DNA of 64,000 nucleotides. It comes from a virus. Shown here piece by piece: positions 41,786 through 58,771 of the stretch (within the stretch, counting starts at the first letter, position 1; every line of letters begins with the position of its first letter). The stretch covers positions 26,133-90,132 of the IMG/VR virus record IMGVR_UViG_3300023174_000112; one strand, given 5' to 3'. The notes under the pieces are model-generated. The model saw only the letters and a list, made by a program, of their open reading frames with translations. It searched no databases and was not told where the DNA came from. Position numbers and translations under genes: made by a program.

Positions 41786-42411
41786 TGCGCACAGCTCTGG
41801 ACACAGAGCTGTTTCCAGATTGTAAAGTGGTAGAAATGCCACTTTACAATCAATGGATTTACTCGATTCAAAAAAACGGAAGCAGCAGTTTAAGAATTCA
41901 ACAGTCAAGAGACAATCTTGCTGTGTTTGTCAACGACAAAATAAATGATCTTGACTTTGTAGATGTGTACATTAGAGAGCCCCGAGACAGATACATAAAT
42001 GGTATCAACACCTATTTGCAATTTCTCAAGCGCGATCATCCTGAATTAGATTACAACACTGCGTTTTGGTTTGCTCGACGTTACAAATTTTTAAACACAC
42101 ATTACTTGCCACAATTTCATTGGATAGCAAATCTCAGCAGATATTTGCACAGTGGTGCAAAAATACGTTTTAGAAACTTTCAAGACTTTGGCAAAGTAGC
42201 TCGTATCAATGCCAAGCCCACTGGAGTCACTGCACCCAGTGATGATTTTATTAAAACGCTGTTTAAAGACGACGTGGATGTTGAATTTTGGTTGTTTCTG
42301 GATCAAATTTTATGGGACCTATGTGGTCAAGAATTGTCTTGGCAACAACTGTTAAATCATTATCAGGATCACCATCCTAATATTATAAAAAATGTATTGC
42401 CCAAGACTTGA
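41785..42411 (+). CDS. Sulfotransferase-like protein
   Basis: 208 residues, TAATG overlap with gp32. WIYSIQKNGSSSLR (K30-N-G-S-S-S) resembles the PAPS 5'-phosphosulfate loop, and VDVYIREPRDRYINGINTYL (R64-x-P-x-x-R) the 3'-phosphate motif of sulfotransferases. If active, it would move sulfate from PAPS to a carbohydrate or peptide. It leads a string of overlapping cargo genes (RSAM-4, SDR, RSAM-5) placed between gp32 and uvsX; the catalytic His is not obvious. Confidence 0.65.
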   Translation: MRTALDTELFPDCKVVEMPLYNQWIYSIQKNGSSSLRIQQSRDNLAVFVNDKINDLDFVDVYIREPRDRYINGINTYLQFLKRDHPELDYNTAFWFARRYKFLNTHYLPQFHWIANLSRYLHSGAKIRFRNFQDFGKVARINAKPTGVTAPSDDFIKTLFKDDVDVEFWLFLDQILWDLCGQELSWQQLLNHYQDHHPNIIKNVLPKT

Positions 42412-43360
42412 TCATTTTGTAAGATTCAACCCCAATGGTACAGTGAGCCGTTGTGGTCACATGACTCAAGCACCTGAGTTTTCTTCATTGGAAGAAATGG
42501 AACAAAGTATGTGGTTGCGCAATGCCAAATTGAGTTTTCACAAAGGTATTTGGCCCAGTGAATGCAGTAGGTGTAAACAAACAGAATCAATCAACAGTAC
42601 CAGCATTAGACTCAATGCTGTGAGCTTTGATCAAAAACAAACCAGACAAGATTATTTGACTGTGGGCGGTGTGTTGGACAATGTGTGCAACAGTGCATGT
42701 CAAACTTGTAATGAAAATTTGAGTACAAAGATTGGCAGTTTAAAGTCTCGAGATCATGTTCGTATTGACAACAGCATTCGCTTTTGGTCATTGCCTCTGG
42801 ATCGTGTGGTACACCTAGACATCAACGGTGGTGAACCCAGCGCCAGTAAAAATTATCGTCACATACTGAAAAATATTCCAGCCAATGTCACCAGTGTTAG
42901 AATCAACACCAATTGTTCTGTGGTAATGACCGAAGTTGAAGATCTAGTCAAGCGTGGTATCGAAGTCACAGTCACAGTGAGCCTGGATGGAATTGGTAAA
43001 AAACACGACTACATTCGCTGGCCCATTGCATGGGAAGAATTTGAAAGCAACCTGCTGGCTTATCAACACATGAACATAGATTTAAACACATGGACCACTG
43101 TGAGTGCATTGAACATTAGAGATCTAAAGAATATTTTTTCTTATGTACAACAGCATAAACTAAAACATTCTTGGGCGTTGTTAGAAAATCCACCGGTGTT
43201 AAATGTAAAATACAGCAACCATATGACAAGATCTGCAGATGTGCCAGATGAACTAAAGTCCGTTGTGGCTTCAGCAGAGGATAACACTGTTGAACTGCAA
43301 TTATTTACACTGGCACAAGATCAGTTACGTGGCATTAAATTATGGGATTACTATCAATGA
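42392..43360 (+). CDS. Radical SAM enzyme with N-terminal cysteine motif (RSAM-4)
   Basis: 322 residues; starts within the previous gene (20-nt overlap). The motif VCNSACQTC (C99/C103/C106) is followed by LDINGGEPSASKN and RINTNCS. The N-terminus has the same four-Cys pattern as RSAM-3/5/6: MYCPRL (C3), NPNGTVSRCGH (C21), and CSRC (C58, C61). No C-terminal cluster. The SDR behind it overlaps by ATGA, suggesting coupled function, for example radical-based oxidation or epimerisation followed by reduction; substrate unknown. Confidence 0.85.
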   Translation: MYCPRLDHFVRFNPNGTVSRCGHMTQAPEFSSLEEMEQSMWLRNAKLSFHKGIWPSECSRCKQTESINSTSIRLNAVSFDQKQTRQDYLTVGGVLDNVCNSACQTCNENLSTKIGSLKSRDHVRIDNSIRFWSLPLDRVVHLDINGGEPSASKNYRHILKNIPANVTSVRINTNCSVVMTEVEDLVKRGIEVTVTVSLDGIGKKHDYIRWPIAWEEFESNLLAYQHMNIDLNTWTTVSALNIRDLKNIFSYVQQHKLKHSWALLENPPVLNVKYSNHMTRSADVPDELKSVVASAEDNTVELQLFTLAQDQLRGIKLWDYYQ

Positions 43361-43932
43361 AAATAGCCATAACTGGACACACAGCTGGAATAGGACAGGC
43401 ATTTGCAACTATTTTACAAAGTCGTGGTCATGACATTGTGGGATTGAGCAAACGAAACAGTGACAACATTAGAAATATTCCCAAGATCCTGGAAAAAATC
43501 ACACCGTGTGATTTGTTCATAAACAATGCACAAGCTGGATATGCACAAACTGAATTGTTGTATGCAGTGTGGGAAGCCTGGCAAGATCAACCAGGCAAAC
43601 ATATTTGGTGTATAGGTACAATGATGACATTGATACCAGTTGCCCCACCAGTTGCAGGGCAAGGTGACATGGCCATGACCATGTATAGGAATCAAAAAAA
43701 CACATTGGATGATGCAGTGGCTCAGTTAAGATACAAAAAACATTTACCAGTAATCACCATGATCAGACCAGGCAGTGTGGCCACACAACCTGGACAAACT
43801 GCTGAATGGCCACATTGCGATGCACATGCCTGGGCCAATACAATAATCACTACCATGATAAATGCCAACGAACAAAGCATGCTATTCAATGAGTTGGCAT
43901 TGATGTCGGCAAAAAACAAGATACCTCTATAA
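43357..43932 (+). CDS. Short-chain dehydrogenase/reductase
   Basis: 191 residues from ATG 43357. TGHTAGIGQA at residues 6-15 is the dinucleotide-binding T-G-x3-G-I-G motif; LFINNAQAG (NNAG equivalent, 54-62) and Y110-x3-K114 (MYRNQK) are the SDR signature and catalytic pair; MIRPGSVAT is the PG motif. NAD(P)(H)-dependent oxidoreductase, shorter than the usual ~250 residues. Overlaps both radical SAM neighbours (ATGA before, TAATG after), so it very likely acts with them. Confidence 0.82.
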   Translation: MKIAITGHTAGIGQAFATILQSRGHDIVGLSKRNSDNIRNIPKILEKITPCDLFINNAQAGYAQTELLYAVWEAWQDQPGKHIWCIGTMMTLIPVAPPVAGQGDMAMTMYRNQKNTLDDAVAQLRYKKHLPVITMIRPGSVATQPGQTAEWPHCDAHAWANTIITTMINANEQSMLFNELALMSAKNKIPL

Positions 43933-45089
43933 TGAACAGTCGAGAATATCTAACAAATCGTGCATTTTGCCCTGTGCCGTGGACCAGCATCATGTACAAT
44001 TTTGATGGCTCAGTTAAGAATTGTATTCGCAGTGCCGCACCAATTGGTAATATCAGAGACTCTGATATAGAACAAATACTTGGCAATGATTATCTGATCA
44101 AAGCAGACATGCAAGCTGGGCAAAAGTTTGCTCGATGTAATCCCTGCTACGACCTAGAGCAAGAAAAAAACAATTTCAACATCATAAGTGATCGTGTGTT
44201 TTATCTCAAAGAATTGCGCGATGTCGATCACACCTTGTATGACACCATGAACTTTGCATTGCACACCGTGGACATACGTTGGAGTAATCTTTGTAATTTT
44301 GCCTGTGTCTACTGCAATCCAGATTTTAGCAGCAAGTGGGCCAGCGAGCATGGTGTTGTTATGCTGACGCCGGTAGATCAACAAGTTGAAAAATTCAAAC
44401 AATACATTTTTAAACATGCACCACAACTGAAACATGTGTATTTGGCCGGCGGCGAACCATTATTGATGAAAGAGAATTTGGAATTTTTGGAGTTGTTAAA
44501 ACAGGTCAATCCCAATGTGAACTTGCGTATCAATACCAATTTGAGCAAAGTAGACACTAAAATTTTTGAATTGATTTGTGAGTTCAAAAATGTGCATTGG
44601 ATTGTAAGTGTGGAAAGTATGGAATCAGAATACGAGTACATCAGGCACGGTGGTTCATGGACAGATTTTTCGGCAAATCTCAAATCAATTCAACAGTTGC
44701 CACATAAAATTACTTTTAACATGCTACATTTTTTGTTGAATTACATGAGTATCTTTGAGTGTGTGGAATTTTTACAAAGCATGGGATTTCACGACAACAG
44801 TTTTGTAATTGGGGCACTGTTGAAGCCCGATTACCTAAACATTAGACATCTGCCAGAAGATGTGTTAAACTCTGTAAAAGATAAATTAAAACAAAAGATC
44901 AATCAACAACCAGGCTATCTGTTGGAGAATGGTTTTAGAAATGTGTTGGCATACTTGGATCAACCCATAGAGAAAAATTTGTCAAATTCATTTGAACAAT
45001 TAAGTATCATGGATAAACGACGTAAACTAAACAGTAGAACAATTTTTAAAGACTTATACAAGGAAGAAAATCATGGGAAAACCATTTGA
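43932..45089 (+). CDS. Radical SAM enzyme with N-terminal cysteine domain (RSAM-5)
   Basis: 385 residues, one-base overlap with the SDR. N-terminal FCPVPWTSIMYNFDGSVKNC and the CNPC knuckle (C13, C31, C69, C72) mirror RSAM-3; the core DIRWSNLCNFACVYC has C121/C125/C128, then YLAGGEPLLMKEN and RINTNLS. YIRHGGSW matches RSAM-3 (YVRHGGNW), showing a recent paralogue. The 3' end overlaps uvsX by 17 nt. Probably a twitch-type auxiliary [4Fe-4S] enzyme; peptide or carbohydrate modification are both possible. Confidence 0.88.
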   Translation: MNSREYLTNRAFCPVPWTSIMYNFDGSVKNCIRSAAPIGNIRDSDIEQILGNDYLIKADMQAGQKFARCNPCYDLEQEKNNFNIISDRVFYLKELRDVDHTLYDTMNFALHTVDIRWSNLCNFACVYCNPDFSSKWASEHGVVMLTPVDQQVEKFKQYIFKHAPQLKHVYLAGGEPLLMKENLEFLELLKQVNPNVNLRINTNLSKVDTKIFELICEFKNVHWIVSVESMESEYEYIRHGGSWTDFSANLKSIQQLPHKITFNMLHFLLNYMSIFECVEFLQSMGFHDNSFVIGALLKPDYLNIRHLPEDVLNSVKDKLKQKINQQPGYLLENGFRNVLAYLDQPIEKNLSNSFEQLSIMDKRRKLNSRTIFKDLYKEENHGKTI

Positions 45090-46131
45090 CGTAAGCAAGT
45101 TCCGTAAGGAAATTACAAAAAGCATTGACGGATTAAGCATTGGCTTTAATGATCCAACAGACTGGATCTCAACAGGCAACTATGCGCTAAACTATTTGAT
45201 CTCAGGAGACTTCAATCGTGGCATTCCCCTGGGCAAGGTCACAGTGTTTGCTGGTGATTCGGGCGCAGGCAAGAGTTATATTTGTTCAGGCAATATTGTT
45301 AAGAACGCACAGGAGCAAGGTATCTTTGTGGTGTTGATTGACAGTGAGAATGCATTGGATGAAGACTGGCTCAAAGCACTGGGTGTGGACACTAGTGAAA
45401 GCAAACTGTTGAAACTTTCAATGGCCATGATTGACGATGTGGCAAAAACTATTTCTACATTCATGAGCGATTACAAAGCCCTGCCCGAAGGCGAACGTCC
45501 CAAGGTCATGTTTGTGATTGACAGTTTGGGCATGTTGTTGACTCCCACAGACGTTAACCAGTTTGACGCTGGCGAAATGAAGGGTGACTTGGGTCGTAAG
45601 CCCAAAGCACTCACAGCATTGGTGCGTAACTGTGTCAACATGTTTGGCTCATACAATGTGGGTTTGGTTTGTACCAATCACACATACGCCAGCCAAGACA
45701 TGTTTGACCCTGATGATAAAATCTCCGGAGGTCAAGGTTTCATTTACGCCAGTTCAATTGTGGTGGCCATGAAAAAGATGAAACTCAAAGAGGACGAGGA
45801 CGGCAACAAAGTGTCAGACGTCAATGGTATTCGTGCAGGTTGTAAAGTCATGAAAACACGCTATGCCAAGCCGTTTGAAGGCGTGCAAGTCAAGATTCCA
45901 TACACAACAGGCATGAGTCCTTATTCAGGCTTGACTGACTTGATTGAGAAAAAAGAGTTGCTCAAGCGTGAAGGCAACAGTTTAGTGTTTACCACCAGCG
46001 AAGGTGAAATTATCAAGAAGTTCCGCAAAGCCTGGGAAAAGAATGATGATGGTTGTTTGGACAAGGTCATGATTGACTTCAAGAACATCAAGACAGAGGT
46101 AAGTACAGCCGACACCGCGGAGGAAGAATAA
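45073..46131 (+). CDS. uvsX: RecA-like recombinase (UvsX)
   Basis: 352 residues. Walker A GDSGAGKS at residues 61-68, Walker B VMFVIDSLGML, and the UvsX-typical YALNYLISGDFNRGIPLGKV and ISGGQGFIYASSIVVAMKKM segments, with an acidic tail. It forms the presynaptic filament in recombination-dependent replication together with UvsY, gp32 and UvsW, all encoded here. It starts inside RSAM-5, an unusual insertion point for a cargo gene; the AAGGAAG before the ATG is within the overlap. Confidence 0.95.
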   Translation: MGKPFDVSKFRKEITKSIDGLSIGFNDPTDWISTGNYALNYLISGDFNRGIPLGKVTVFAGDSGAGKSYICSGNIVKNAQEQGIFVVLIDSENALDEDWLKALGVDTSESKLLKLSMAMIDDVAKTISTFMSDYKALPEGERPKVMFVIDSLGMLLTPTDVNQFDAGEMKGDLGRKPKALTALVRNCVNMFGSYNVGLVCTNHTYASQDMFDPDDKISGGQGFIYASSIVVAMKKMKLKEDEDGNKVSDVNGIRAGCKVMKTRYAKPFEGVQVKIPYTTGMSPYSGLTDLIEKKELLKREGNSLVFTTSEGEIIKKFRKAWEKNDDGCLDKVMIDFKNIKTEVSTADTAEEE

Positions 46132-46394
46132 TGTCAGCAGAAGTAGCAAGCGAAATTTGGGGCGAGTTAAAACGATACGTTAATGTAGTAGATCGCATGG
46201 AGGCTGCCGAAAGCATTGTGGCCATCCTGATTGATCATGACCACGATGTAGACGAAATCAAAGATGCCTTCAAAGGCGATTCAGACATCAAAAAAGCCTT
46301 GACTGCATACTTGGACAACGACAAGGATTATGCAGAAGAAGAGGAAGAAGAGCTGGACGAAGAGGACAACTACAATCAAGAAGATGACTATTGA
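46131..46394 (+). CDS. Small acidic protein between uvsX and RSAM-6
   Basis: 87 residues, TAATG overlap with uvsX. Helical N-terminus (EVASEIWGELKRYVNVVDRM, ESIVAILIDHDHDVDEIKDA) and a tail of almost only E/D (AEEEEEELDEEDN). A small acidic gene behind uvsX is common in aquatic T4-like phages; it may be a DNA mimic or a recombination accessory factor. No named family. Confidence 0.7.
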   Translation: MSAEVASEIWGELKRYVNVVDRMEAAESIVAILIDHDHDVDEIKDAFKGDSDIKKALTAYLDNDKDYAEEEEEELDEEDNYNQEDDY

Positions 46395-47565
46395 AAGAGA
46401 TTATTATTGTTCTTACAAGTTTAAATATCTAAAAATTGATCTTGTATCAAACAAAACTCTTAATTGTCATGCGGCAAAATCTCATGCTATTGATTTTGCT
46501 TGGTTAGAAAAAAATCCAGGACAACTGTTCAATACTGATACAAATGTGTCTGAAAGACACATGATGTTGTTGAATCAACGCAATGCCAGTTGTGAACAAA
46601 ACTGTTGGCCCCTGGAAGACAAAGGTGCAGTGAGCGCACGATTATGGCAACATGGACAAACAAAAACTCATACTGATGTTCATGCACAACCAGAAATACT
46701 TGAAATAAAATTAAACGATGATTGTAATTTGTCGTGTTCTTATTGTTGCAAAGACTTTAGCAGTGCCTGGCGCAGAGAATTAGCAGAGCAAGGCAACTAC
46801 AGCGTCGACACCGGTGACGAAAGATTTCAACTGACACAGTACGATAAAATCATGATGAAAGTCAGCCAACGAGAAGTCAAAGGTACTTCAAAATTTCAAA
46901 CGTTGATGTCTGAAATAAAAAGTTTCAGTCACGATCTCAAAGAAGTAGTTGTCACGGGCGGAGAACCTTTGCTGGACAATCAATTGTTTGATGTATTAGA
47001 TGCGGTATCAGCCACATCAGCTGTGATCAACATTTACACCGGGCTAGGAGTGGAACTCCAAAGATTTCAACGCATGATAGATAAAATCAAACAGACACCC
47101 AACGCAATGATATCCATCAGCGCTGAATGCACGGACAAATTCTATGAATTCAATCGTTATGGCAACACATGGCATGAATTTTTAAATCGCGTAGAGATTG
47201 TAAAATCCAGCGGAATTGATTTCAGGTTCAGCACAGCAATTACCAATCTCACTGTCTTTGATTTGCCAGCATTTATTCGACAGTTCATTGATCAACGAAT
47301 AGGATTGGTATTTGCCAATCATCCTTACATGATGGCACCTTATGTGTTAGATGTTGAAAGTAAAAAACTGATCTTAAAAGATATTCAGTCATTGCCAGAT
47401 CATTATCAGGAACAGATTGCACAGTCTATACAGGCCGATCCCAGCGAATCTCAACGTCAACAAATGTCAGAATTTTTAAAAGAATATGTGACTCGTAGAA
47501 ATCTTGATGTGAACATTTACCCAAAAAGTTTTTTAGAATGGTTGGACATACATGTGGTACAGTAA
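46384..47565 (+). CDS. Radical SAM enzyme with N-terminal cysteine motif (RSAM-6)
   Basis: 393 residues from ATG 46384, overlapping the previous stop by 11 nt. CNLSCSYC at C114/C118/C121, VVTGGEPLLDN, then RYGNTWHEF (the counterpart of RHGGNW in RSAM-3/5). N-terminal cysteines C9, C28, C70, C74 (SCEQNC) again give the auxiliary-cluster pattern with one extra residue in the last pair. Overlaps uvsY by 14 nt, so it is embedded in the uvsX-uvsY block. Confidence 0.87.
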   Translation: MTIERDYYCSYKFKYLKIDLVSNKTLNCHAAKSHAIDFAWLEKNPGQLFNTDTNVSERHMMLLNQRNASCEQNCWPLEDKGAVSARLWQHGQTKTHTDVHAQPEILEIKLNDDCNLSCSYCCKDFSSAWRRELAEQGNYSVDTGDERFQLTQYDKIMMKVSQREVKGTSKFQTLMSEIKSFSHDLKEVVVTGGEPLLDNQLFDVLDAVSATSAVINIYTGLGVELQRFQRMIDKIKQTPNAMISISAECTDKFYEFNRYGNTWHEFLNRVEIVKSSGIDFRFSTAITNLTVFDLPAFIRQFIDQRIGLVFANHPYMMAPYVLDVESKKLILKDIQSLPDHYQEQIAQSIQADPSESQRQQMSEFLKEYVTRRNLDVNIYPKSFLEWLDIHVVQ

Positions 47566-48004
47566 AGTTGTAGCAGATCTTGGCAATATACCTGACTTCA
47601 TTGCACATTTTGAAAATGAACTGCAAGACGCCAAGCGTGATTGCAAGATTGGTGGCCTGGTAGAAAAGAACATCACCGCACTGCCAGGCATAACTGAACA
47701 CAGATTTAACCAACTGCAAGAGATTGAAGCTGTGTTGAACTATCTCAACATACAACTGCGCAAAATACGCAGACGACATTTTCAAAAGTATCTAGAAGGA
47801 TATGCCCGTGCGCTGACCAGTCGTGACGCTGAAAAGTATGTGGATGGTGAAGAAGAAGTTGTGGACTTTGAAACCATCATCAACGAAGTGGCATTACTAC
47901 GCAACCGTTGGTTGGGCATAATGAAAGGCCTGGACACCAAACAGTGGCAAATGGGTCACGTGGTCAGACTGCGAACAGCAGGCATGGAAGATATCACAGT
48001 ATGA
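47552..48004 (+). CDS. uvsY: Recombination mediator (UvsY)
   Basis: 150 residues. MWYSKVVADLGNIPDFIAHF, FNQLQEIEAVLNYLNIQLRK, RRRHFQKYLEGYARALTSRD and the C-terminal EVALLRNRWLGIMKGLDTKQ give the helical layout of UvsY, which loads UvsX onto gp32-coated DNA. T4 UvsY has 137 residues. It starts inside RSAM-6 and ends overlapping the methyltransferase ATG. Confidence 0.88.
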   Translation: MWYSKVVADLGNIPDFIAHFENELQDAKRDCKIGGLVEKNITALPGITEHRFNQLQEIEAVLNYLNIQLRKIRRRHFQKYLEGYARALTSRDAEKYVDGEEEVVDFETIINEVALLRNRWLGIMKGLDTKQWQMGHVVRLRTAGMEDITV

Positions 48005-48755: not shown

Positions 48756-49523
48756 ATGAAAATTGTAATTGTCACGGGTGGATTTGACCCACTGCATTCC
48801 GGGCACATAGCCTATTTCCAAGCAGCCAAGGCCCTGGGGCACAGACTGGTAGTTGGACTCAATTCGGACGACTGGTTGGTACGCAAAAAAGGCCGACCAT
48901 TCATGCCCATGACCGAGCGCAGAGCCATTGTGGAAAATCTCTCCATGGTGAATCGTGTGATTGAGTTTGATGACTCTGATGACAGTGCTCGGGATGCTAT
49001 ACGCCTGGCCAAATTGTACTATCCCATGCCTGGTGCCAAGTTTATCTTTGCCAATGGCGGCGATAGAACACAAGACAACATTCCTGAAATGTCAGAAATC
49101 AACGTGGAATTTGTTTTTGGTGTTGGCGGCGAAAACAAAAAGAATTCTAGTTCGTGGATATTGGAAGATTGGAAAAAACCCAAGACCGAACGTACCTGGG
49201 GTTACTATCGTGTGTTGCATGAAGTCGGACCTTATACCAAACTCAAAGAACTCACTGTAATGCCCAAGACCTGCTTGAGCATGCAACGCCATGACAGTCG
49301 TGCAGAATTTTGGTTTGTGGCCGAAGGCAATGCCACAGTGTACACACTAGATGAGGCCAGTACAGATCAAGAAGTCAAATGTCACTTGACTGTGCATGAA
49401 AACACATTTATTGCTGTAAATGAATGGCATCAATTGTGCAATGAAAGCGATCAACCGTTGAAGTTGATTGAAATCCAATACGGTGAACGCTGTGTTGAAG
49501 AGGACATTGAACGCAAACCATGA
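48756..49523 (+). CDS. Cytidylyltransferase fused to mannose-isomerase-type cupin
   Basis: 255 residues from ATG 48756. N-terminal nucleotidyltransferase: TGGFDPLHSGHIAY with HSGH at 14-17, a GRPFMPMTERRAIVENL loop, and NSSSWILE (the SSTxI-type end motif). From about residue 143 the sequence changes to a cupin like the C-terminal part of type II mannose-6-phosphate isomerase/GDP-mannose pyrophosphorylase: RTWGYYRVLHEVGPYTKLKE, LSMQRHDSRAEFWFVAEGNA, HQLCNESDQPLKLIEIQYGE. The two together would activate and isomerise a sugar phosphate, perhaps a heptose/CDP or mannose intermediate for a surface glycan. ATGA overlap with the next glycosyltransferase. Confidence 0.85.
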   Translation: MKIVIVTGGFDPLHSGHIAYFQAAKALGHRLVVGLNSDDWLVRKKGRPFMPMTERRAIVENLSMVNRVIEFDDSDDSARDAIRLAKLYYPMPGAKFIFANGGDRTQDNIPEMSEINVEFVFGVGGENKKNSSSWILEDWKKPKTERTWGYYRVLHEVGPYTKLKELTVMPKTCLSMQRHDSRAEFWFVAEGNATVYTLDEASTDQEVKCHLTVHENTFIAVNEWHQLCNESDQPLKLIEIQYGERCVEEDIERKP

Positions 49524-50209
49524 CACCTATACCTATCTTTGTGGGTTACGATCCTAGAGAAGCTGTGGCATATCATGTGTGCGTGAACAGCATTATCAGA
49601 CATGCCAGTCAGCCAGTGGCCATTGTGCCTGTGGCCTTGAACTTGTTTCAAGACTATGATGAAACACACACTGACGGCAGCAATCATTTTATCTACACAC
49701 GGTTCCTTGTGCCACACTTGATGGACTATCATGGTTGGGCCATATTCATTGACGGTGATATGATTGTACGTGACGACATTGTAAAACTGTGGAATCTACA
49801 AAGTCCTTACAATGATGTCATGGTTGTCAAACACGATTACAAAACAAAGATGACTGAAAAGTACCTGGGTTCAAAGAACGAAGACTATCCAAGAAAAAAC
49901 TGGTCAAGCGTGATACTATGGAACTGTAACAGTTATCCCAATCGCCAACTTACTCCTGAATTTGTGCAAAGCAAGCCTGGCAGTTTCCTGCACAGATTTA
50001 GCTGGTTAGATGATACTCGTATAGGCGAATTACCCCCAGAATGGAATTGGTTGCCTGATGAATACGGGCCAAACCCCGATGCCAAGCTCTTGCACTACAC
50101 CTTGGGCACTCCATGCTTTGATGAATTCCATGATACACCACAAGGTGAAGAATGGCACCACGAACGCACACTAACCGATTACTGTCAGCAAAGAACACAC
50201 AATGAATGA
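49520..50209 (+). CDS. Glycosyltransferase (GT-A, DxD)
   Basis: 229 residues. IPIFVGYDPREAVAYHVCVN is a GT8-like opening; WAIFIDGDMIVRDD has the metal-binding DGD (78-80), with HYTLGTPCFDEF near the end providing the GT8-like terminal His. It transfers a sugar from a nucleotide donor; donor and acceptor unknown. Overlaps the previous gene by ATGA and the next by 8 nt, inside a glycan operon. Confidence 0.8.
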   Translation: MTPIPIFVGYDPREAVAYHVCVNSIIRHASQPVAIVPVALNLFQDYDETHTDGSNHFIYTRFLVPHLMDYHGWAIFIDGDMIVRDDIVKLWNLQSPYNDVMVVKHDYKTKMTEKYLGSKNEDYPRKNWSSVILWNCNSYPNRQLTPEFVQSKPGSFLHRFSWLDDTRIGELPPEWNWLPDEYGPNPDAKLLHYTLGTPCFDEFHDTPQGEEWHHERTLTDYCQQRTHNE

Positions 50210-51191
50210 TTGGGAACTGGAAGACGAAACATCATATCTGCCGCCAGCGAAGCCAGCGCCGCATGAATTTGATTTGTTACCACCTGAGGTTAAAAAAATA
50301 CTCCATGACATAGTAAAGTATCGAGTAGACCCAGCGGGAGATTATTATGGTATGAATTTTGATGTGATAGCTGAAAAGATTCGTGCATTAGACACACAGG
50401 CCATACATGCCATCGAAAGCGAATACAGATATGAAAGAAAAGGTCACATGTACGATCCCATCTTAGAAAGTTTTGTGCGAGGTTGCGGTGGGCAAATAAC
50501 CACCTGGAGCAAAACAGAGTCAATGCCTACTCCAATAGTGTTGCGAGGAATTACCAAACGCAAACAAATGGACGCATGCCGAACCATGGGCAAAGACTTT
50601 TATTATATAGACACCGGATACTTTGGCAACGGTAAGAAAAAACTTTATCATAGAATTACAAAGAATGATGTGCAAAATTTTGGACCTGTGATTGACCGCC
50701 CCAGTGATAGATTTGCCCGCACCGGTATTCAGCTCAAAAAAGTACGTGCAGATGGCAGCAAAATATTGTTGGCTCCGCCCAGTCAAAAGTTGTTGAACCT
50801 GTATGACATAGACCTTGAACAATGGTTACAACAAACACTGGCAGAAATCAGCGCTCATACAGATCGTGAAGTAGTGATACGCCGCAAACAAGGGCGCAGT
50901 GTTCGAATCAATGATGACACAATAGAAATGGCCCTGGACCAAGACATTTATTGTTTGATAACTTATTCCAGCATTGCTGCTGGCGAAGCCATACTGCATG
51001 GCAAGCCAGCTATCACACTTGGACCCAATGCCGCTGCCGCTGTGTGCAGTACTTCAATCTCTGAAATAGAATCAATACGACGACCCGGCCTTGATGAAAT
51101 TGCAACCTGGGCACATCACATGGCCTACTGCCAATTTACGGAAGCAGAAATGCGCGATGGCACAGCTTGGAGAATATTGCAAGGTGGTTGA
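50202..51191 (+). CDS. GT-B-like glycan enzyme, paralogue A
   Basis: 329 residues. One of four related proteins (others at 51184, 53963 and 55580). Shared features: PIVLRGITKRKQMDACRTMG and FYYIDTGYFGN in this and paralogue C; a TDR-x-V-V-I-R strand (TDREVVIRRK) and a late LITYSSIAAGEAILHGKPAI Rossmann-type segment in all four. The layout recalls capsule/Kdo-transfer-type GT-B enzymes. N-terminal ~90 residues (Pro/acid-rich) are unique. Exact reaction unknown. Confidence 0.68.
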   Translation: MNDWELEDETSYLPPAKPAPHEFDLLPPEVKKILHDIVKYRVDPAGDYYGMNFDVIAEKIRALDTQAIHAIESEYRYERKGHMYDPILESFVRGCGGQITTWSKTESMPTPIVLRGITKRKQMDACRTMGKDFYYIDTGYFGNGKKKLYHRITKNDVQNFGPVIDRPSDRFARTGIQLKKVRADGSKILLAPPSQKLLNLYDIDLEQWLQQTLAEISAHTDREVVIRRKQGRSVRINDDTIEMALDQDIYCLITYSSIAAGEAILHGKPAITLGPNAAAAVCSTSISEIESIRRPGLDEIATWAHHMAYCQFTEAEMRDGTAWRILQGG

Positions 51192-52125
51192 TTGTGTGGT
51201 TTACATCAGTTCAGTGGCCAACGTTCGCAAACACACAAGAAAGATTGAATGCTTGGAAAGTTTTGCTGAAGGGGTACGTGCCACAGGCAATTCAGTTGTG
51301 ACCGAATGGGAACACCGATACACACCCAGCCGACTGGCAGTGATGTTGGGCTGGGCCACCACAAACACAGGTGGTCGAAACATTGTGTTGCGCAAACAAA
51401 TCATTGCAGATCAACGTCGACTTGGCAATCACACCATGTGCATTGACGCCAGTTGTTGGAAGTATCTTGACGAGCAAGGCAGTTATCTACGCTACAGTCT
51501 CAACGGACCATTTTATGACCGTGCAGAGTATGCCAATCGCAACAGCACTGATGCCAAATGGCAGGAAATAAGTCAGACCTTGGGAGTGACTTTGCAAGCA
51601 CATCAGCGCAACGTCAACGGACACATACTGATCTGTATGCAACGTGATGGCGGCTTTGCAATGAAAACGCTGAGTCCCATGGATTGGTTGCAAAACAAAA
51701 TACACGAGATTAGGTCAGTCACACAACGTCCCATACACATTAGACCACACCCCGGCAAATACAACATGCAAGACTTCAATGCGTACAGTGGAAGAGACGC
51801 AAAAAGACAAAGCATTACCTTGATTGATCCCAGTCGAAGCCGACTGTTAGACAATTTACAAAATGCACACTCAGCAGTGTTTTTTAACAGTTCAGCCAGT
51901 GTGGCAGCGGCGTGTGCTGGCATACCTGTGTTTGTGGATGATGCCAGTTGTGTGGCATGGACAGTGGCCAATCATGATATCGCCAAGATTGAAACACCTG
52001 CTGAGTTTTCTCGAGAGCAATGGATATATGATCTAGCCGCTGCTCATTGGAGTGATGAAGATGCACGACAGGGCCGCATCTATCAAAAATTCTTGCCTTA
52101 TTTGACTTCCACAGTAACGTCATAG
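51184..52125 (+). CDS. GT-B-like glycan enzyme, paralogue B
   Basis: 313 residues from GTG 51184 (GGAG 11 nt upstream; 8-nt overlap with paralogue A). By comparison with paralogue D the first strand (DCVVYISSVANVRKHTRK) should follow the start immediately, which favours GTG 51184 over ATG 51157 (322 residues). QRPIHIRPHPGK and AVFFNSSASVAAACAGIPVF, then VANHDIAKIETP, are the family motifs. Its 3' end overlaps the convergent methyltransferase by 28 nt. Confidence 0.68.
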   Translation: MVDCVVYISSVANVRKHTRKIECLESFAEGVRATGNSVVTEWEHRYTPSRLAVMLGWATTNTGGRNIVLRKQIIADQRRLGNHTMCIDASCWKYLDEQGSYLRYSLNGPFYDRAEYANRNSTDAKWQEISQTLGVTLQAHQRNVNGHILICMQRDGGFAMKTLSPMDWLQNKIHEIRSVTQRPIHIRPHPGKYNMQDFNAYSGRDAKRQSITLIDPSRSRLLDNLQNAHSAVFFNSSASVAAACAGIPVFVDDASCVAWTVANHDIAKIETPAEFSREQWIYDLAAAHWSDEDARQGRIYQKFLPYLTSTVTS

Positions 52126-52655
52126 ACTTGGCCCACGACGCCAGGCCATTTTTGACTTTTATCAAACACAGCAATTTCTTCTTTGACTATGGTCACATTC
52201 ATGTTGGCCAACAGTTGTTTGCGCCACCAGTCTGGTGATTCCACAATCAAGTGAGCATTGCGACCATCAGGCAAGTGTTTTTTTGCAGGATAGCAAGCAA
52301 TTCTAAACCATCCGGCAACAATTATTCGGTCACTGATCAACTGCAACGTGCTGGCCAGGTGTTCTGGTTCTATGTGCTCAAACACATCAGCACTGACCAC
52401 TGCATCAAATGATCTTTTGGGCATGCGATTGTGTTCAGGATTTCCTGGATCGTAACCTTCCACACGTATGTTGGGATATGCTTGTGAAATACTGGCCATC
52501 AAGGCACCGTGCCCGCAGCCAAAATCCATGATACTGGTAGGCAGATACTGATCAATAAATGGGCTGATGGCTCCCAGCATTTTGCTACCTCTGACAAATT
52601 GTCCTTGGCTGTGCATTTTGGCCAGTTGTGCTTGATATTCAGGATCAATTATCAT
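52098..52655 (-). CDS. Class I SAM-dependent methyltransferase
   Basis: 185 residues. Motif I SIMDFGCGHGALMASIS (DFGCGHG 44-50), VEGYDPGN (acidic loop) and FDAVVSADVFEHIEPEHL (post I) are the UbiE/COQ5-like arrangement. Last gene of the five-gene minus-strand glycan operon, coupled by ATGA to the gene before it. Acceptor unknown, probably a sugar. Confidence 0.8.
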   Translation of the reverse strand: MIIDPEYQAQLAKMHSQGQFVRGSKMLGAISPFIDQYLPTSIMDFGCGHGALMASISQAYPNIRVEGYDPGNPEHNRMPKRSFDAVVSADVFEHIEPEHLASTLQLISDRIIVAGWFRIACYPAKKHLPDGRNAHLIVESPDWWRKQLLANMNVTIVKEEIAVFDKSQKWPGVVGQVYDVTVEVK

Positions 52656-53329
52656 CGGTGATTTACTTCCACAAACTCATACTTACCAACAAATGTTTCT
52701 GGCACATCTTGCCAAGTACCGGACAACTGATCATCCATCCACTCTGGGTAGTAAGGTCGATCCTTGAACCACCAAAACAAATCACTGCCTGACCAATTGG
52801 CATAGTATTTTTTAAAAAATTCTCGTGTTCTGGGTTCACAAAAATAATCAGGGTCATACATGGTCTTTTTGTCTTTGGCTTGTCGTTGAAAATTTATACC
52901 AATAAAACAAAATTTTCCAGCATGTTGTTCTAACATTTCGCGGACCCAAGTCATATCGTCATCGGGTATACTGTTTAATACCTGTGTGCATATCACCCCG
53001 TCAAACTTTTTGTTTTTTGGAGGTTTCCGATTTAGTCCCTTGACGCATGGATCATATTTGAATACTTTGACCCCAAGGTATTGATCAAATGTTTGCCACT
53101 GGTCTATGGGCAACTCTTCGCCTGGTTCAGCACCATAAGGCAAAGGTTCAGTGTACTGTAATCCTTTGCCGCAGCCGTAGTCTAGTATGGTCTTGGCACC
53201 ATATCGAACCACTAGGTCTTTGATCTTTTTTTGATATTTGATAACATCGTAGCCCGCCCAGCTTTTGTTTTCTTGTTGAAACTGAGTGCCCAGTTTGACA
53301 CTTTTCTTGTAGTAAGAACTCACCGCCAT
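52652..53329 (-). CDS. Second class I methyltransferase
   Basis: 225 residues from ATG 53329; an upstream TTG at 53341 lies deeper in the FkbM gene. TILDYGCGKGLQYTEPLPYG (DYGCGKG 50-56), VKVFKYDPCVKGLNRKP, FDGVICTQVLNSIPDDDM and FCFIGINFQRQAKDKKT indicate a class I fold. Long aromatic C-terminus (YYANWSGSDLFWWFKDRPYY) of unknown use. Overlaps the FkbM gene by 10 nt. Confidence 0.78.
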   Translation of the reverse strand: MAVSSYYKKSVKLGTQFQQENKSWAGYDVIKYQKKIKDLVVRYGAKTILDYGCGKGLQYTEPLPYGAEPGEELPIDQWQTFDQYLGVKVFKYDPCVKGLNRKPPKNKKFDGVICTQVLNSIPDDDMTWVREMLEQHAGKFCFIGINFQRQAKDKKTMYDPDYFCEPRTREFFKKYYANWSGSDLFWWFKDRPYYPEWMDDQLSGTWQDVPETFVGKYEFVEVNHR

Positions 53330-53970
53330 CCCATGATCCAATCGTCACGCACTTGATCTAGTTTGATCATGCCCCATTCTTGCAACAGCGCCACTGCCGC
53401 AAACTGTCCGTATTGCTTGCTGTATGCATCATGTGGTTTTTGTTCTATCACTACTACAGGTCTGCAACGGCAAATGGTTTGTTCTGCACCTTGCAATATG
53501 CGATACTCGTAACCTTCGCAGTCAATTTTGATATAACTCACATCATGAAAATTCAGCGTATCCAGTCGAACCACTTGCACATCGCCGGTGCCCATGGTAG
53601 CAGGATCAAGATGGCTGTGTCCTGAATTATCTTCAGTGATGATCATGGTTCCTTGTGTGTCTTGATCGCCCAAGGCAATTGGTTGAACTTCAAAGTTCTT
53701 GCCTTGCACATTGTGCTCTAAACATTCTCTAAACACAGCCACTGGTTCAAATGCTATCACACGTTTGAAACTGCCAACAAAGTCGCGGCTCCACAAGCCC
53801 ACATTGGCACCAATGTCCAGGGCCAGGTCTCGATTTTTACACAGTTCAATACTTCGTCGACGCACAGCAACTTGATATTCAGCTGGGAGACCTTTGTCCA
53901 CACTTTTCTTCAACATTCGCGGAAGGTGTGTTTCAAAGTCCGGGAATTTCCATCCATAATGCTCAACCAT
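53320..53970 (-). CDS. FkbM-family methyltransferase
   Basis: 216 residues. ALDIGANVGLWSRDFVG (motif I at 50-66), VIAFEPVAVFRECLEHNV, VQVVRLDTLNFHDVSYIKID and the FkbM hallmark YIKIDCEGYEYRILQGA, followed by VVVIEQKP. FkbM enzymes O-methylate sugars or polyketides; in surface-glycan operons they methylate terminal sugars. It sits between paralogue C and two other methyltransferases with overlaps on both sides. Confidence 0.85.
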   Translation of the reverse strand: MVEHYGWKFPDFETHLPRMLKKSVDKGLPAEYQVAVRRRSIELCKNRDLALDIGANVGLWSRDFVGSFKRVIAFEPVAVFRECLEHNVQGKNFEVQPIALGDQDTQGTMIITEDNSGHSHLDPATMGTGDVQVVRLDTLNFHDVSYIKIDCEGYEYRILQGAEQTICRCRPVVVIEQKPHDAYSKQYGQFAAVALLQEWGMIKLDQVRDDWIMGWR

Positions 53971-54766
53971 TTAATATCTCCTCAGTTTGTTTAATTATAC
54001 GTTCGGCTGTGCCGTTTTTGAATTCGCTGATATGAAACTGAGCATAGGCCAAGTGATTGGCCCAGGCCTGTATCTGGTCTGTATCTGGAAACCACGGTGT
54101 TTCAATTTGTGCTAAATCCAAATTGGCCACAGGACGAGCTGCATTGCACGGAGCCAGCACAAACACAGGTGTGCCAGCCAACACAGATTCGGTTGCGGCA
54201 ATGCTGTTGAAGGTGACCACAGCGTGTGTATCAGTCATTGATTGCTCTACACGATTTGTTTTTCTTTCATTGCGGCTGCGAGTGCGTTCACGAACAACAA
54301 TGGGTCGATCTGTGTGTTGTTTGATGGTGTCAATGGTTTGCGTGAGCCAGACATCTAATTCTATGCCGTAAAATTTGCAAGGCTTTTCATCAGGAGCAAC
54401 AATCAGTATTGAACTGCCACGCCGCCGACGTGATATTTCAAGTCCTAGTCGGTGCCATCTATCACTGGCTCGGGGTATCACTTGATCGTGTTGCAAGTTG
54501 TTGGGCACAACGCGATGCCACAGTTTCCATCCATGTGGGTTGTTGAATCCTGGCCGATTGCCCAGGTATCCAGAGTCCATGTACCTAAATGGTCGCCCAT
54601 CAGCCCAGCATTGTTTGATGATCTTGTGTTTCATTATGCCACGCAACATCAAGGGTTCTGTGCTGTCCTCATAGCGCCATGACTCCAATGGTGTGGGCTG
54701 TTGTCCTAGTCCATGCGCATACATGTCAATGTATTCGTCATCGCCATTCTTGCTGAGAAAAATCAT
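53963..54766 (-). CDS. GT-B-like glycan enzyme, paralogue C
   Basis: 267 residues, ATGA overlap with the glycosyltransferase before it. LMLRGIMKHKIIKQCWADGR and FRYMDSGYLGNRPG match paralogue A closely; TDRPIVVRERTRS, AVVTFNSIAATESVLAGTPV and VANLDLAQIETP match A and B. Same family on the opposite strand, so the cassette has been duplicated and inverted. Reaction unknown. Confidence 0.68.
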   Translation of the reverse strand: MIFLSKNGDDEYIDMYAHGLGQQPTPLESWRYEDSTEPLMLRGIMKHKIIKQCWADGRPFRYMDSGYLGNRPGFNNPHGWKLWHRVVPNNLQHDQVIPRASDRWHRLGLEISRRRRGSSILIVAPDEKPCKFYGIELDVWLTQTIDTIKQHTDRPIVVRERTRSRNERKTNRVEQSMTDTHAVVTFNSIAATESVLAGTPVFVLAPCNAARPVANLDLAQIETPWFPDTDQIQAWANHLAYAQFHISEFKNGTAERIIKQTEEILNG

Positions 54767-55566
54767 CTCCAGTAACTTTCGTTTCTTTTGACTCGTAAAT
54801 CAGATGACCGACTCTTACCCAGACCTTTGCGTTCGCCTTTGAGGTGATCAATATACGCACCCCATTCGCAATTGATCAGTGGATGACCTTCGCCCATTTG
54901 CAAGTGTGCTGTCCAATTTAGTTCACGCAAGGCGTGTCGTTTTCTCACTGCGTCAAACACATAACTGTCATGCCATTCGTCTAAAGTAAAGATTCCTTGG
55001 TCAGCATCATCATACATGTGTTGGAAATCTTTTAACCAGAATCGCACCGCGGGTTGAGTAATGTGCATGCCATACAGGCCACATTCGGTAAATTTTTTAC
55101 TGCGTCCAGCAAAACAAAGATCGGTCGAATCTGGAAAAAACTCTGCCAACTTTTGAACAGTCATTGGGCTGTGGCACACCATGTCAGCATCCATCCAAAT
55201 CAACCACTCTGTTGTGGCATGTTCAGCGGCATGAAATATAGCATACACTTTGTGAGCAAATCTCACAGCATGCCATTTGAATCCTTTGCCTGCATCTTTT
55301 CTTTTTGATCTAATAGGATCTGCTGTGACATCACCATTGGCCTTGGGCACGTTGCGCCAGGTGTTTTTAAATGCAACCAACTCAGGACTTGACCCTTCTA
55401 AATTCAACACCTCTAAATTGGGTGCTGTTTCGGTCACACGACAACCTTCAGCATACACTTTGAGCAACACATCTTGTGGCCATGTTTGTAAAAAAGTTTC
55501 AATCATACGCCGTCCGTATTTCTCATGACCGCTGGCATTAAAGGTGGTAACTACAGTGTATTTCAT
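54763..55566 (-). CDS. Glycosyltransferase-like protein (GT-A, DxD)
   Basis: 267 residues from ATG 55566, which follows a TAAATA element by 5 nt. KYTVVTTFNASGHEKYGRRM, then HAAEHATTEWLIWMDADMVC with the metal-binding DAD (126-128), ECGLYGMHITQPAVRFWLKD and a C-terminal HPLINCEWGAYIDHLKGERK. First gene of the minus-strand glycan operon; donor unknown. Confidence 0.78.
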   Translation of the reverse strand: MKYTVVTTFNASGHEKYGRRMIETFLQTWPQDVLLKVYAEGCRVTETAPNLEVLNLEGSSPELVAFKNTWRNVPKANGDVTADPIRSKRKDAGKGFKWHAVRFAHKVYAIFHAAEHATTEWLIWMDADMVCHSPMTVQKLAEFFPDSTDLCFAGRSKKFTECGLYGMHITQPAVRFWLKDFQHMYDDADQGIFTLDEWHDSYVFDAVRKRHALRELNWTAHLQMGEGHPLINCEWGAYIDHLKGERKGLGKSRSSDLRVKRNESYWR

Positions 55567-55571
55567 CGGTG

Positions 55572-55577
55572 TATTTA
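55572..55577 (-). promoter_or_regulatory. Late promoter 5 nt before the glycosyltransferase
   Basis: GTAAATA on the minus strand, then CACCG and ATG 55566. It probably drives all five minus-strand glycan genes. Confidence 0.65.
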
Positions 55578-55579
55578 CA

Positions 55580-56431
55580 GTGATCAAAACCATAGCCTAT
55601 TTTCCTGCTCAGTGTGCAATGAATTCAAAATCTGTGATGGCAGCTTTTTTGGATTGTTGCCAAGCCGCGGGCATACAAACAAGAGAAAATGCCTGGGACG
55701 CAGATGCCGCTGTGATTTGGTCAGTGCTGTGGCACGGTAGAATGCGGCCAAACAAAGCAGTGTATGAGCACTATCGCAGTCAAAACCGACCAGTGATAAT
55801 CATTGAAGTGGGGGCATTGTATCGTGGCGAAACATGGAAAGTGTCTGTGAATCATATTACCAGTGCAGGATATTATGGACATCAGGAAAACTTGGATCGC
55901 AACCGCCCTGCACAATTACGCATAAGTTTGGCCAATCAGACCACTCCGAGTCCCGAAATTATCATTGCCGCACAGCATCAACGCAGTTTACAAGTGGCCG
56001 GCATTGACAGCATGGAATCTTGGATACTGACGCAAATTCAACTGTTGCGAAACTCAACCGATCGTCCCATACGTATAAGACCACACCCAAGGTCACCCGT
56101 AAATTTGTCAAGGTTACCTGCAGGAGTCAGCATGGAACAACCAAGACCTGTGCCCAATACCTATGATGGATTTGACATGCACTTCAATTGTCATGCAGTG
56201 GTGAACCTCAATTCAGGACCAGGCATACAGGCAGCAATTTCAGGTTGCAGGCCTGTTGTGGATCAATCAAGTTTGGCATATCCTGTGGCAGTGGGATATG
56301 CGGACATTGAACAACCTTATGAAGTAGACAGGGAAGCCTGGTTGATCAAGATATGCCACACTGAATACACAGTACAAGAACTACGAGAAGGACTATGGCT
56401 AAAAAGAATCCAATCCGCACTAACAACATAG
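55580..56431 (+). CDS. GT-B-like glycan enzyme, paralogue D
   Basis: 283 residues from GTG 55580 (start IKTIAYFPAQCAMNSKSV, aligning with the first strand of paralogue B); ATG 55619 would cut this strand off. TDRPIRIRPHPRS, AVVNLNSGPGIQAAISGCRP and the tail PVAVGYADIEQPYEVDREAW are the family motifs. Divergent from the minus-strand operon with only 13 nt between starts. Overlaps the next glycosyltransferase by 37 nt. Confidence 0.68.
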   Translation: MIKTIAYFPAQCAMNSKSVMAAFLDCCQAAGIQTRENAWDADAAVIWSVLWHGRMRPNKAVYEHYRSQNRPVIIIEVGALYRGETWKVSVNHITSAGYYGHQENLDRNRPAQLRISLANQTTPSPEIIIAAQHQRSLQVAGIDSMESWILTQIQLLRNSTDRPIRIRPHPRSPVNLSRLPAGVSMEQPRPVPNTYDGFDMHFNCHAVVNLNSGPGIQAAISGCRPVVDQSSLAYPVAVGYADIEQPYEVDREAWLIKICHTEYTVQELREGLWLKRIQSALTT

Positions 56432-57138
56432 TCGATTGTGCGTGTGTGATACATAGTTCAGGATACAGTTGGACTTATGTAGAACACTTGTACAACATGT
56501 TGACACGTAATTTACCACAAGGCATAAGATTCCATGTGTACACAGAACATGATCGATCAGTGCCGCCGCACATGATCAAGCATTGCTTGACTGAGTGGGA
56601 AGGTATTTCGGGCCTGAAACGATCATGGTGGTACAAAATGCAGTTGTTCAATCCTGAACATCATCAAGGCAACATGTTGTATTTTGATCTTGATTGTGTA
56701 ATAATAAATGATTTGAGTTGGATCACAGCGTTGCACACAGACTACTTCTGGACCATTAGGGATTTTAGATATTTACAAAGTGCTGGTTTTAGTGGAATGA
56801 ACTCTAGTGTGATGTGGTGGAACGTGAACAAATTTGCACACATATGGCACGACTTTGAAAAGCTCAATGTCAACGATGTCACACGCCGGTACCAAGGCGA
56901 TCAAGATTACATAGGTGCAGTACTGTCTCCCACTCAGCGTAGACATTTTGAACAACAGCATTTGCAAAGCTGGCGTTGGCAAGTGGCTGATGGCGGATTT
57001 GATTTTGCAAAAAGAAAACCCAAGCTGCCTGGCACAGGCGCACAGGTCAGCGGCGATGCCAGTATACTGGTATTCCACGGCCGTCCCAAACCGCACGAAT
57101 GCTTGGATTATCCAGTGGTTGCTTCGCACTGGCGATAG
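56395..57138 (+). CDS. Glycosyltransferase-like protein (GT-A, DxD)
   Basis: 247 residues. CACVIHSSGYSWTYVEHLYN, RSWWYKMQLFNPEHHQGNML, YFDLDCVIINDL (DLD at 98-100) and GMNSSVMWWNVNK show a GT-A fold like hexosyltransferases with a product-side HGRPKPHECL end. It starts inside paralogue D and is the last gene of the glycan block, just before the repeated promoters. Target unknown. Confidence 0.78.
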   Translation: MAKKNPIRTNNIVDCACVIHSSGYSWTYVEHLYNMLTRNLPQGIRFHVYTEHDRSVPPHMIKHCLTEWEGISGLKRSWWYKMQLFNPEHHQGNMLYFDLDCVIINDLSWITALHTDYFWTIRDFRYLQSAGFSGMNSSVMWWNVNKFAHIWHDFEKLNVNDVTRRYQGDQDYIGAVLSPTQRRHFEQQHLQSWRWQVADGGFDFAKRKPKLPGTGAQVSGDASILVFHGRPKPHECLDYPVVASHWR

Positions 57139-57742: not shown

Positions 57743-58771
57743 ATGAGTGCAATTCGAGTTATCAAAGGTGAGTATCGCAACAAACCCGTTCGCAATATCG
57801 CTTTCAATCTTGTGTCAGGTTATCAAACTGGCGCCAAAGGTAATTTTGTGACAGTAGAAAACAATGGGACATTTCCTAATTGTCCCGACACCATCCGTAT
57901 CAAAGTCAACAACATTAAAGACATCGAGTATGTCAATGGAGAAGAAGTGAGTAACAACAACACCGTGGCATTTGTTGCCCCCCAAGCAGAGACTGAAACT
58001 GAAGATCAAATTATGACTCGTATTCGCGAGCGTTTTGACATCCTGAATGAGATGACAAAGGCTTGTGTCAACGGTGACATCCGTGCTATGATTGTATCGG
58101 GTCCTCCCGGAGTGGGCAAGAGCTTTGGCGTTGAGCGCGAGATCGAAAAGGCCACACTGTTTGACAAATTAGCAGGCAAGCGCCTTCGTGCCGAAGTTGT
58201 CAAAGGTAGTGCAACACCTATTGGTTTGTATCAAACCTTGTACAAGTATTCAGATGCCAATTGTGTGTTGGTGTTTGATGACTGTGACAGCATTTTGCTC
58301 GACGACGTGGCCCTGAACTTGCTGAAGGGTGCCTTAGACAGCGGCAAGAAACGTACTATTTCATGGTTGTCAGAATCCAGTGCTCTGCGCCGTGAAGGCA
58401 TTCCTGATCGTTTCGAATTCAAAGGCAGTGTTATCTTTATCACCAACTTGAAGTTTGACACAATGAAGAGTCAAAAATTGCGTGATCACTTGGATGCATT
58501 GCAATCACGCTGTCACTATCTTGACTTGACACTGGACACCATGCGTGACAAAGTGTTGCGTATCAAACAAATTGCCAAAGACGGCGTGTTGTTTGCAGAC
58601 TATGATTTTGAAGAGTGTGTGCAAGACGAGATTGTTGAGTTCATGGAAGCCAATCAGAATCGTTTGCGTGAGATGAGCCTGCGCATGGCGCTGAAGATTG
58701 CAGACTTGCGCAAGAGCTTTTCAGGCAATTGGAAACGCATGGCAGAAACTACATGTATGAAGAGTGCCTAA
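57743..58771 (+). CDS. AAA+ ATPase
   Basis: 342 residues, AAAGGAG 6 nt before ATG. Walker A GPPGVGKS at 120-127, Walker B CVLVFDDCDS (about 174-183), sensor-1-like SVIFITNLKFDTMKSQKLRD and an arginine-bearing HLDALQSRCHYLDL. The first ~95 residues form a separate beta-rich domain. AAA+ proteins of this size remodel protein or nucleic-acid complexes. The gene has its own strong promoter and may be co-transcribed with two tiny membrane genes up to the terminators. Confidence 0.85.
   Translation: MSAIRVIKGEYRNKPVRNIAFNLVSGYQTGAKGNFVTVENNGTFPNCPDTIRIKVNNIKDIEYVNGEEVSNNNTVAFVAPQAETETEDQIMTRIRERFDILNEMTKACVNGDIRAMIVSGPPGVGKSFGVEREIEKATLFDKLAGKRLRAEVVKGSATPIGLYQTLYKYSDANCVLVFDDCDSILLDDVALNLLKGALDSGKKRTISWLSESSALRREGIPDRFEFKGSVIFITNLKFDTMKSQKLRDHLDALQSRCHYLDLTLDTMRDKVLRIKQIAKDGVLFADYDFEECVQDEIVEFMEANQNRLREMSLRMALKIADLRKSFSGNWKRMAETTCMKSA

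Follow-up and report, generated by a model that had tools for sequence, protein, structure and literature searches.

The predicted glycan cassette and its genes

The stretch of viral DNA analysed here (the window) is 64,000 bases long, corresponds to bases 26133-90132 of the 90-kb virus record IMGVR_UViG_3300023174_000112, and carries at positions 48756-57138 a two-strand cassette of predicted glycan genes. Four of its products (A, B, C and D) are paralogues of one glycosyltransferase-like superfamily, accompanied by a fused nucleotidyltransferase (N), further glycosyltransferases (G1, G2 and G3) and methyltransferases (F, M1 and M2). Every open reading frame (ORF) named in the first-pass annotation of this DNA is present in its place, and that observation is confirmed as a whole. 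The predicted features are given below, where GT stands for glycosyltransferase and SAM for S-adenosylmethionine.

48756-49523 (+): N, HIGH-type nucleotidyltransferase (residues 6-107; PF01467, 3e-12) fused to a mannose-6-phosphate-isomerase-type cupin (residues 143-253; PF01050, 3e-21)
49520-50209 (+): G1, GT8-like GT-A glycosyltransferase with DxD (PF01501, 2.8e-7; phrog_28018, 1e-36)
50202-51191 (+): A, GT-B-like paralogue with about 84 additional residues at the N-terminus; without the Gln, the Asp nucleophile and the His-Pro
51184-52125 (+): B, GT-B paralogue; Q153, R187-x-H189-P190 and S236 invariant; Gly in place of the Asp nucleophile
52098-53341 (-): variable slot between B and F, here holding the M1 and M2 methyltransferase pair
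52098-52655 (-): M1, class I SAM methyltransferase, in the variable slot (PF13489, 6e-8)
52652-53341 (-): M2, class I SAM methyltransferase, distant paralogue of M1, in the variable slot (PF13489, 5e-5)
53320-53970 (-): F, FkbM methyltransferase (PF05050, 2.7e-20)
53963-54766 (-): C, GT-B-like paralogue nearest to A; without the Gln, Asp and His-Pro; retains the acidic D64, R159 and S188
54763-55593 (-): G2, GT-A (GT2-like) glycosyltransferase with DxD (PF00535, 1.1e-8)
55580-56431 (+): D, GT-B paralogue with RPHP and the Gln; Ser in place of the Asp nucleophile
56395-57138 (+): G3, phage glycosyltransferase with DxD (phrog_1962, 2.6e-24)

Overlaps of 4-8 bases between several adjacent genes are in keeping with a compact operon. 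The cassette products look soluble, with no transmembrane stretch in any of them (the largest 19-residue Kyte-Doolittle mean is 1.58). The enzymes that the first-pass annotation had listed besides the paralogues, namely a nucleotidyltransferase fusion, three DxD glycosyltransferases, and an FkbM and two other methyltransferases, are all borne out by profiles and motifs. N joins the Pfam families CTP_transf_like and MannoseP_isomer, its HxGH motif is kept in 73 of 73 relatives and the Q/H/E/W/H set of the cupin is invariant. Its nearest PDB chains are the CDP-forming ethanolamine-phosphate and glycerol-3-phosphate cytidylyltransferases, separate relatives of its two halves occur in cyanophages, and the fusion is predicted to make an activated sugar or alditol donor. 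The DxD motif is kept without exception in each glycosyltransferase family (DGD in 78/78 for G1, DAD in 117/117 for G2, DLD in 86/86 for G3). M1 and M2 match each other in blastp at 6e-5. A single ORF encodes both G1 and A in several phages (L021, L029, L045, L101, L129, L169 and L177), which suggests that the two act together.

A constant frame with one variable slot

The same gene order recurs in dozens of IMG/VR contigs: N, G1, A and B on one strand, then the variable slot, then F, C and G2 on the opposite strand, and finally D and G3 on the first strand again. The cassette is usually flanked by uvsX/uvsY on one side and a conserved ATPase gene on the other: of the 111 loci with N and uvsY, 87 have the two no more than 3.5 kb apart, and of the 72 with G3 and the ATPase gene, 69 have them no more than 1.5 kb apart. 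Between B and F, the slot varies from 7 to about 2,540 bases. Depending on the phage it is empty or holds one methyltransferase, a methyltransferase pair (as here), a fifth GT-B paralogue, a GT25 glycosyltransferase with a second FkbM, or a methyltransferase with a radical SAM protein and a GT25 enzyme. The FkbM gene F likewise diverges among otherwise alike cassettes, its alleles being 93-98% or 51-79% identical; for example, F stands at 60% in locus L012 while its neighbours stand at 77-93%, and at 97% in locus L113. Read from these sequences, a constant frame with exchanged decoration is the pattern of a serotype locus.

Over 86 distinct profiles, the flanking proteins average 84% identity to the window and the cassette proteins 65%, with the flank higher in 85 of them, and this among loci that were fetched by cassette proteins, a procedure that biases against finding the cassette less conserved than its flanks. 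The faster divergence of the cassette is in itself no proof of diversifying selection, because the flanks are mostly slow-evolving replication proteins.

Kinship and age of the four paralogues

The kinship of the four paralogues, as claimed by the first-pass annotation, goes far beyond chance in all-against-all blastp. A and C are the closest pair (36.6%, 6e-52), followed by B and D (28%, 7e-15), B and C (2e-10), C and D (3e-8), A and D (3e-4) and A and B (2e-3), and all pairs of cassette proteins outside the paralogues stay above 0.05, M1-M2 excepted. The four-way alignment leaves R182, R187, S236, G246 and IE269-270 invariant (B numbering). Two of these, R182 and R187, lie in the TDRPxxxR-type strand, so that this proposed shared motif stands; the N-S-[SI]-A segment proposed along with it is loose, reading NSSA in B, NSIA in C, SSIA in A and NSGP in D.

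Profile searches over the fetched loci found about 605 superfamily ORFs in 191 loci, near-copies counted. In a tree built from 102 representatives, a supported branch sets off each of B, C and D from the rest; A, too, is a single clade save for one divergent row, and it groups with C, away from B and D. The four are thus ancient separate subfamilies, older than the radiation of the phage lineage. The description of the cassette as duplicated and inverted holds formally for its present layout; a recent inverted duplication is rejected by the tree, which has four old subfamilies. Three outgroup contigs (L062, L068 and L078) carry a lone A/C-type gene after N or G1, on the same strand.

Sequence searches of Pfam and PHROG gave nothing above cut-off for A, B, C or D, so only profiles and folds placed these proteins, and a PDB sequence search with A gave no match above cut-off. 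Weak profile matches to DUF6716 (PF20471) occur in 29 of 44 A/C-side members (best 3e-4), and to Capsule_synth (PF05159) in a few members (best 4.6e-4). An outgroup member (L072:6310-7119) scores 20.2 against the PF05159 cut-off of 20 bits.

Fold and active site

The AlphaFold2 models of B and C are of high mean predicted local distance difference test score (95.4 and 95.7, respectively). In Foldseek, the best PDB match of both models is KpsC (6mgc for B, 4.8e-7; 8fuw for C, 5.7e-6; probability 1.00 in each case), and their best solved matches are KpsC, WbbB and KrkA, which are retaining transferases of beta-Kdo (3-deoxy-D-manno-oct-2-ulosonic acid). The GT-B fold is hence supported by modelling for B and C, and for their homologues A and D by that kinship, in agreement with the GT-B-like label given on first reading. 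Among viral predicted structures, B matches four proteins of Tetraselmis virus 1 (TM-score to the query 0.64-0.73), two of which are named capsule polysaccharide biosynthesis protein, as well as a protein of Caulobacter phage CcrColossus. Tetraselmis virus 1, a giant algal virus, encodes at least four proteins of the B fold (BFVD A0A2P0VNK4, A0A2P0VP54, A0A2P0VP72 and A0A2P0VP74).

In WbbB and KrkA, the Gln of a QXXXD motif binds the donor carboxylate and the Asp is the nucleophile, and a (K/R)XHP motif, common to sialyltransferases, binds the cytidine nucleotide (PMC9587256, PMC12887879). The Gln and the R-x-H-P are invariant in all 51 rows on the B/D side, and the Gln and the His are mostly 36-37 residues apart, against 37 in WbbB (Q228 to H265). 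The Asp nucleophile of QXXXD is missing from all four of A-D; at the position Gln+4, B has Gly (12/12) and D has Ser (18/18). The rows of A and C have Pro at the Gln position (38/38), Lys or Arg at the His position (38/38) and no Asp, and retain the Arg and the later Ser. Further, one column in the N-terminal half is D or E in every row of the superfamily alignment but one, and is a candidate for the acidic general base, a putative counterpart of Glu102 of KrkA. Four outgroup members, three from phages and one from the Manatee Spring podovirus, have the full QXXXD and RXHP, and one of these scores narrowly above the Capsule_synth threshold, which links the superfamily to the capsule transferases. 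The motif pattern suggests that the nucleophile was lost in the cassette lineages; B and D would then be inverting. A and C are degenerate at the nucleotide site, a correction to the first-pass annotation.

Proposed function and its alternatives

The cassette very probably encodes a cytoplasmic oligosaccharide pathway of the phage. The pathway proposed on first reading, a phage-carried one for surface glycans or virion glycosylation, is supported in part, namely as a phage-borne glycan pathway, for which the set of genes, their invariant catalytic motifs and their conserved order all speak. As a mechanism, the cassette is proposed to be a glycan-assembly locus acting in the host cytoplasm. N would activate a sugar or alditol phosphate, probably with cytidine triphosphate (CTP), and B and D would transfer the cytidine-activated donor by direct (inverting) displacement, with help from the acidic residue shared across the superfamily. 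A and C may be diverged transferases or non-catalytic partners, A possibly guiding G1; G1-G3 would append further sugars, and FkbM and the slot enzymes would cap the glycan by methylation or other decoration. Most likely the glycan would be attached to a virion protein, and the particle would thereby gain a serotype-like glycan coat specific to its lineage.

Several families relevant to this proposal were looked for in 12 records (the one containing the window and 11 related ones) of 90-353 kb, three of them of 342-353 kb, with positive controls in each search. Wzx-type flippases (PF01943), Wzy_C polymerases (PF04932), ABC2_membrane exporters (PF01061) and synthetases of the cytidine monophosphate (CMP) sugars CMP-Kdo and CMP-Sia (PF02348) were found in 0 of the 12 records, as was the thymidylate-synthase family (PF00303, the dCMP/dUMP hydroxymethylase type), for which the records are possibly fragments. 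The N-type nucleotidyltransferase is present in 12 of 12, and epimerase-family sugar enzymes in 8 of 12, the short one of the window, near the radical-SAM genes, being at the edge of detection. The first-pass remark that polymerase and flippase genes are lacking thus extends from the window to the 11 related records. These absences weaken the surface-polymer and hydroxymethyl-DNA readings, and that of PF02348 argues against self-supply of CMP-beta-Kdo.

The proposal that the oligosaccharide is built on a virion protein is the best explanation as a whole, with a probability of roughly 0.5. The acceptor within it is a guess resting mainly on the absent membrane machinery; a virion protein is favoured because the enzymes are soluble, no export system is present, the decoration is variable, the fold has giant-virus kin and mycobacteriophages offer a precedent. 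In giant viruses, virus-encoded glycogenes serve the virion (PMC9614988), and mycobacteriophages are reported to use glycosyltransferases of their own on capsid and tail tube (PMC12363180). Several points weigh against this proposal. No acceptor gene was identified, and a cytoplasmic pathway for the core of lipopolysaccharide (LPS) would likewise need no flippase of its own; GT8-, GT25- and GT2-like enzymes are typical of LPS cores. The donor chemistry is read from motifs only. The TM-scores to the Kdo transferases are moderate (0.3-0.55, with a root-mean-square deviation of about 7-13 A), so that the arrangement differs in detail from theirs. Most records behind the absences are fragments.

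The main rival, which is somewhat unlikely, is that methylated sugars are added in the cytoplasm to LPS core or another surface glycan, which a host exporter then flips, so as to block superinfection or re-adsorption of progeny. Similar cyanophage clusters with a HIGH nucleotidyltransferase, cupin isomerase and glycosyltransferases were read as host-surface modification by Iyer et al. 2021 (PMC7824862). The fold kin of A-D make parts of capsule and O-antigen, the GT25 of the slot and the GT8-like G1 belong to LPS-type families, and the variability of the cassette resembles that of O-antigen loci. However, none of the 12 records has an export or polymerase family, and little surface turnover would be expected during a lytic infection. 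Glycosylation of a small metabolite, or of a host protein in aid of takeover, is quite improbable: a second group of cyanophage clusters has been proposed to make secondary metabolites (PMC7824862) and some cassettes have radical-SAM genes close by or within them, but at least seven predicted proteins of glycosyltransferase fold suggest an oligosaccharide, and no scaffold-making enzyme is seen. It is highly improbable that the target of the glycosyltransferases is phage DNA with modified bases, as it is in T4 and in phages whose DNA carries multi-sugar glycans. The phage is T4-like and DNA hypermodification with multiple glycosyltransferases has been reported (Pyle et al. 2024, as cited in PMC12619734); yet even the three records of 342-353 kb gave no hydroxymethylase-type gene, and the fused sugar isomerase-nucleotidyltransferase, FkbM and GT-A set would better fit an oligosaccharide.

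A fuller version of the virion-glycan proposal, rather doubtful when taken in all its parts, is a serotype-like locus built on a new viral glycosyltransferase superfamily derived from retaining Kdo-type transferases. B and D would have kept cytidine binding and lost the nucleophile in favour of direct displacement, A and C would have lost the motif and become partners or a new transferase type, and the superfamily would also serve giant algal viruses. If the virion-glycan proposal is true, abundant freshwater phages diversify their sugar coat as bacteria do their O-antigens, by a constant frame and a swappable decoration slot, and phage surface glycans, with the selection on them, become directly testable. 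A-D also offer natural examples of how an active site of the retaining Kdo type may lose first its nucleophile and then its nucleotide motif.

Relation to known systems

The nearest characterized proteins are KpsC (GT107), WbbB (GT99) and KrkA (GT140), which are the best folds for B and C and share the R-x-H-P, its partner Gln and a C-terminal S...G element with B and D. Unlike them, A-D are without the Asp nucleophile, and A and C also without the Gln and His-Pro; identity is about 10-14%. Moreover, A-D are compact stand-alone proteins with no capsule or O-antigen context, and the CMP-Kdo synthetase family is absent from the phage records. The profile likeness to the putative glycosyltransferases PF05159 Capsule_synth and PF20471 DUF6716 is weak, A-D themselves falling below every Pfam cut-off.

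Phage glycan clusters with HIGH nucleotidyltransferases, cupins and glycosyltransferases are already known. The 'capsular polysaccharide modification' clusters of jumbo phages and cyanophages (Iyer et al. 2021; PMC7824862) combine a HIGH nucleotidyltransferase, a cupin isomerase, several glycosyltransferases and methyltransferases, and are polymorphic between relatives. In contrast to these, the present cassette has the nucleotidyltransferase and cupin fused, has no PfkB kinase or epimerase/dehydratase inside, and holds four KpsC-fold paralogues in a constant frame with one variable slot. The mycobacteriophages Che8, Corndog and Myrna also encode glycosyltransferases, with particle proteins as acceptors, as is proposed for the present cassette; PMC12363180 names one essential glycosyltransferase each for Che8 and Corndog and describes no multi-gene variable locus. 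In giant viruses, clade-specific glycogene clusters set the virion glycans (mimivirus clades; PMC9614988), and Tetraselmis virus 1 supplies fold matches of the B model, but the hosts of giant viruses are eukaryotic. As far as the open-access literature shows, the new elements are a KpsC/WbbB-fold superfamily whose catalytic motifs were lost step by step, an N enzyme with its two domains fused, and a conserved frame around a variable slot.

Source virus, flanking genes and scattered relatives

The neighbours of the cassette in the window encode UvsX, UvsY, gp32, terminase, tail sheath and helicase, hence the source, a freshwater virus of bacteria, is a T4-like myovirus. The terminase is closest (51%) to those of Pseudomonas jumbo phages of the Arenbergviridae, two of which, Paride and PA5oct, have no annotated cassette in the region read, that beside the shared ATPase. 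The flanks are as follows.

45073-48004 (+): left flank as a whole, conserved in position among the loci
45073-46131 (+): UvsX
46330-47565 (+): radical SAM protein
47552-48004 (+): UvsY
57743-58771 (+): right flank, conserved T4-like ATPase (phrog_1250)

T4-type late promoters (TATAAATA) number 3 in the window against 1.2 expected, with none near the cassette, so that the timing of its expression is unreadable from them.

A scan of 84,980 genomes with C, as a check on a bacterial origin, gave no match. A SAR11 single-cell genome has a B-family homologue (L195:8992-9900; 27-29%) with RGHP and QRNGG, apparently chromosomal, between guaA and AhpC/engA. It is the sole apparently chromosomal match of the B-family pattern search, the others being on contigs with phage neighbours (L196-L198). 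These three, filed as metagenome-assembled genomes of Marinimicrobia/Euryarchaeota, carry a phage-type cassette and a phage helicase, with uvsX and uvsY in L197 and L198, and are probably misbinned phages. Among cultured phages, Pelagibacter phage Mosig and CcrColossus (gp126-128) have relatives of the cassette genes. In CcrColossus (L003:8390-12943), two superfamily members, a GT9 gene and a sialyltransferase-like gene are flanked by a tail gene and the lysis genes, a placement that may favour a late, virion-linked role.

The phyletic linkage to radical-SAM genes suggested on first reading is loose, and these genes are not required. The one between uvsX and uvsY is present in 17 of 74 loci with both markers and absent (gap under 300 bases) in 53, and hence looks like a mobile or optional insert; some slot modules bring their own. 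In the window, four divergent radical-SAM genes (35732-36892, 42392-43360, 43932-45089 and 46330-47565) are interleaved with gp32, UvsX and UvsY. Between two of them lies a short NAD-epimerase-like protein (43342-43932; 196 residues) that spans the first quarter of the Pfam model only.

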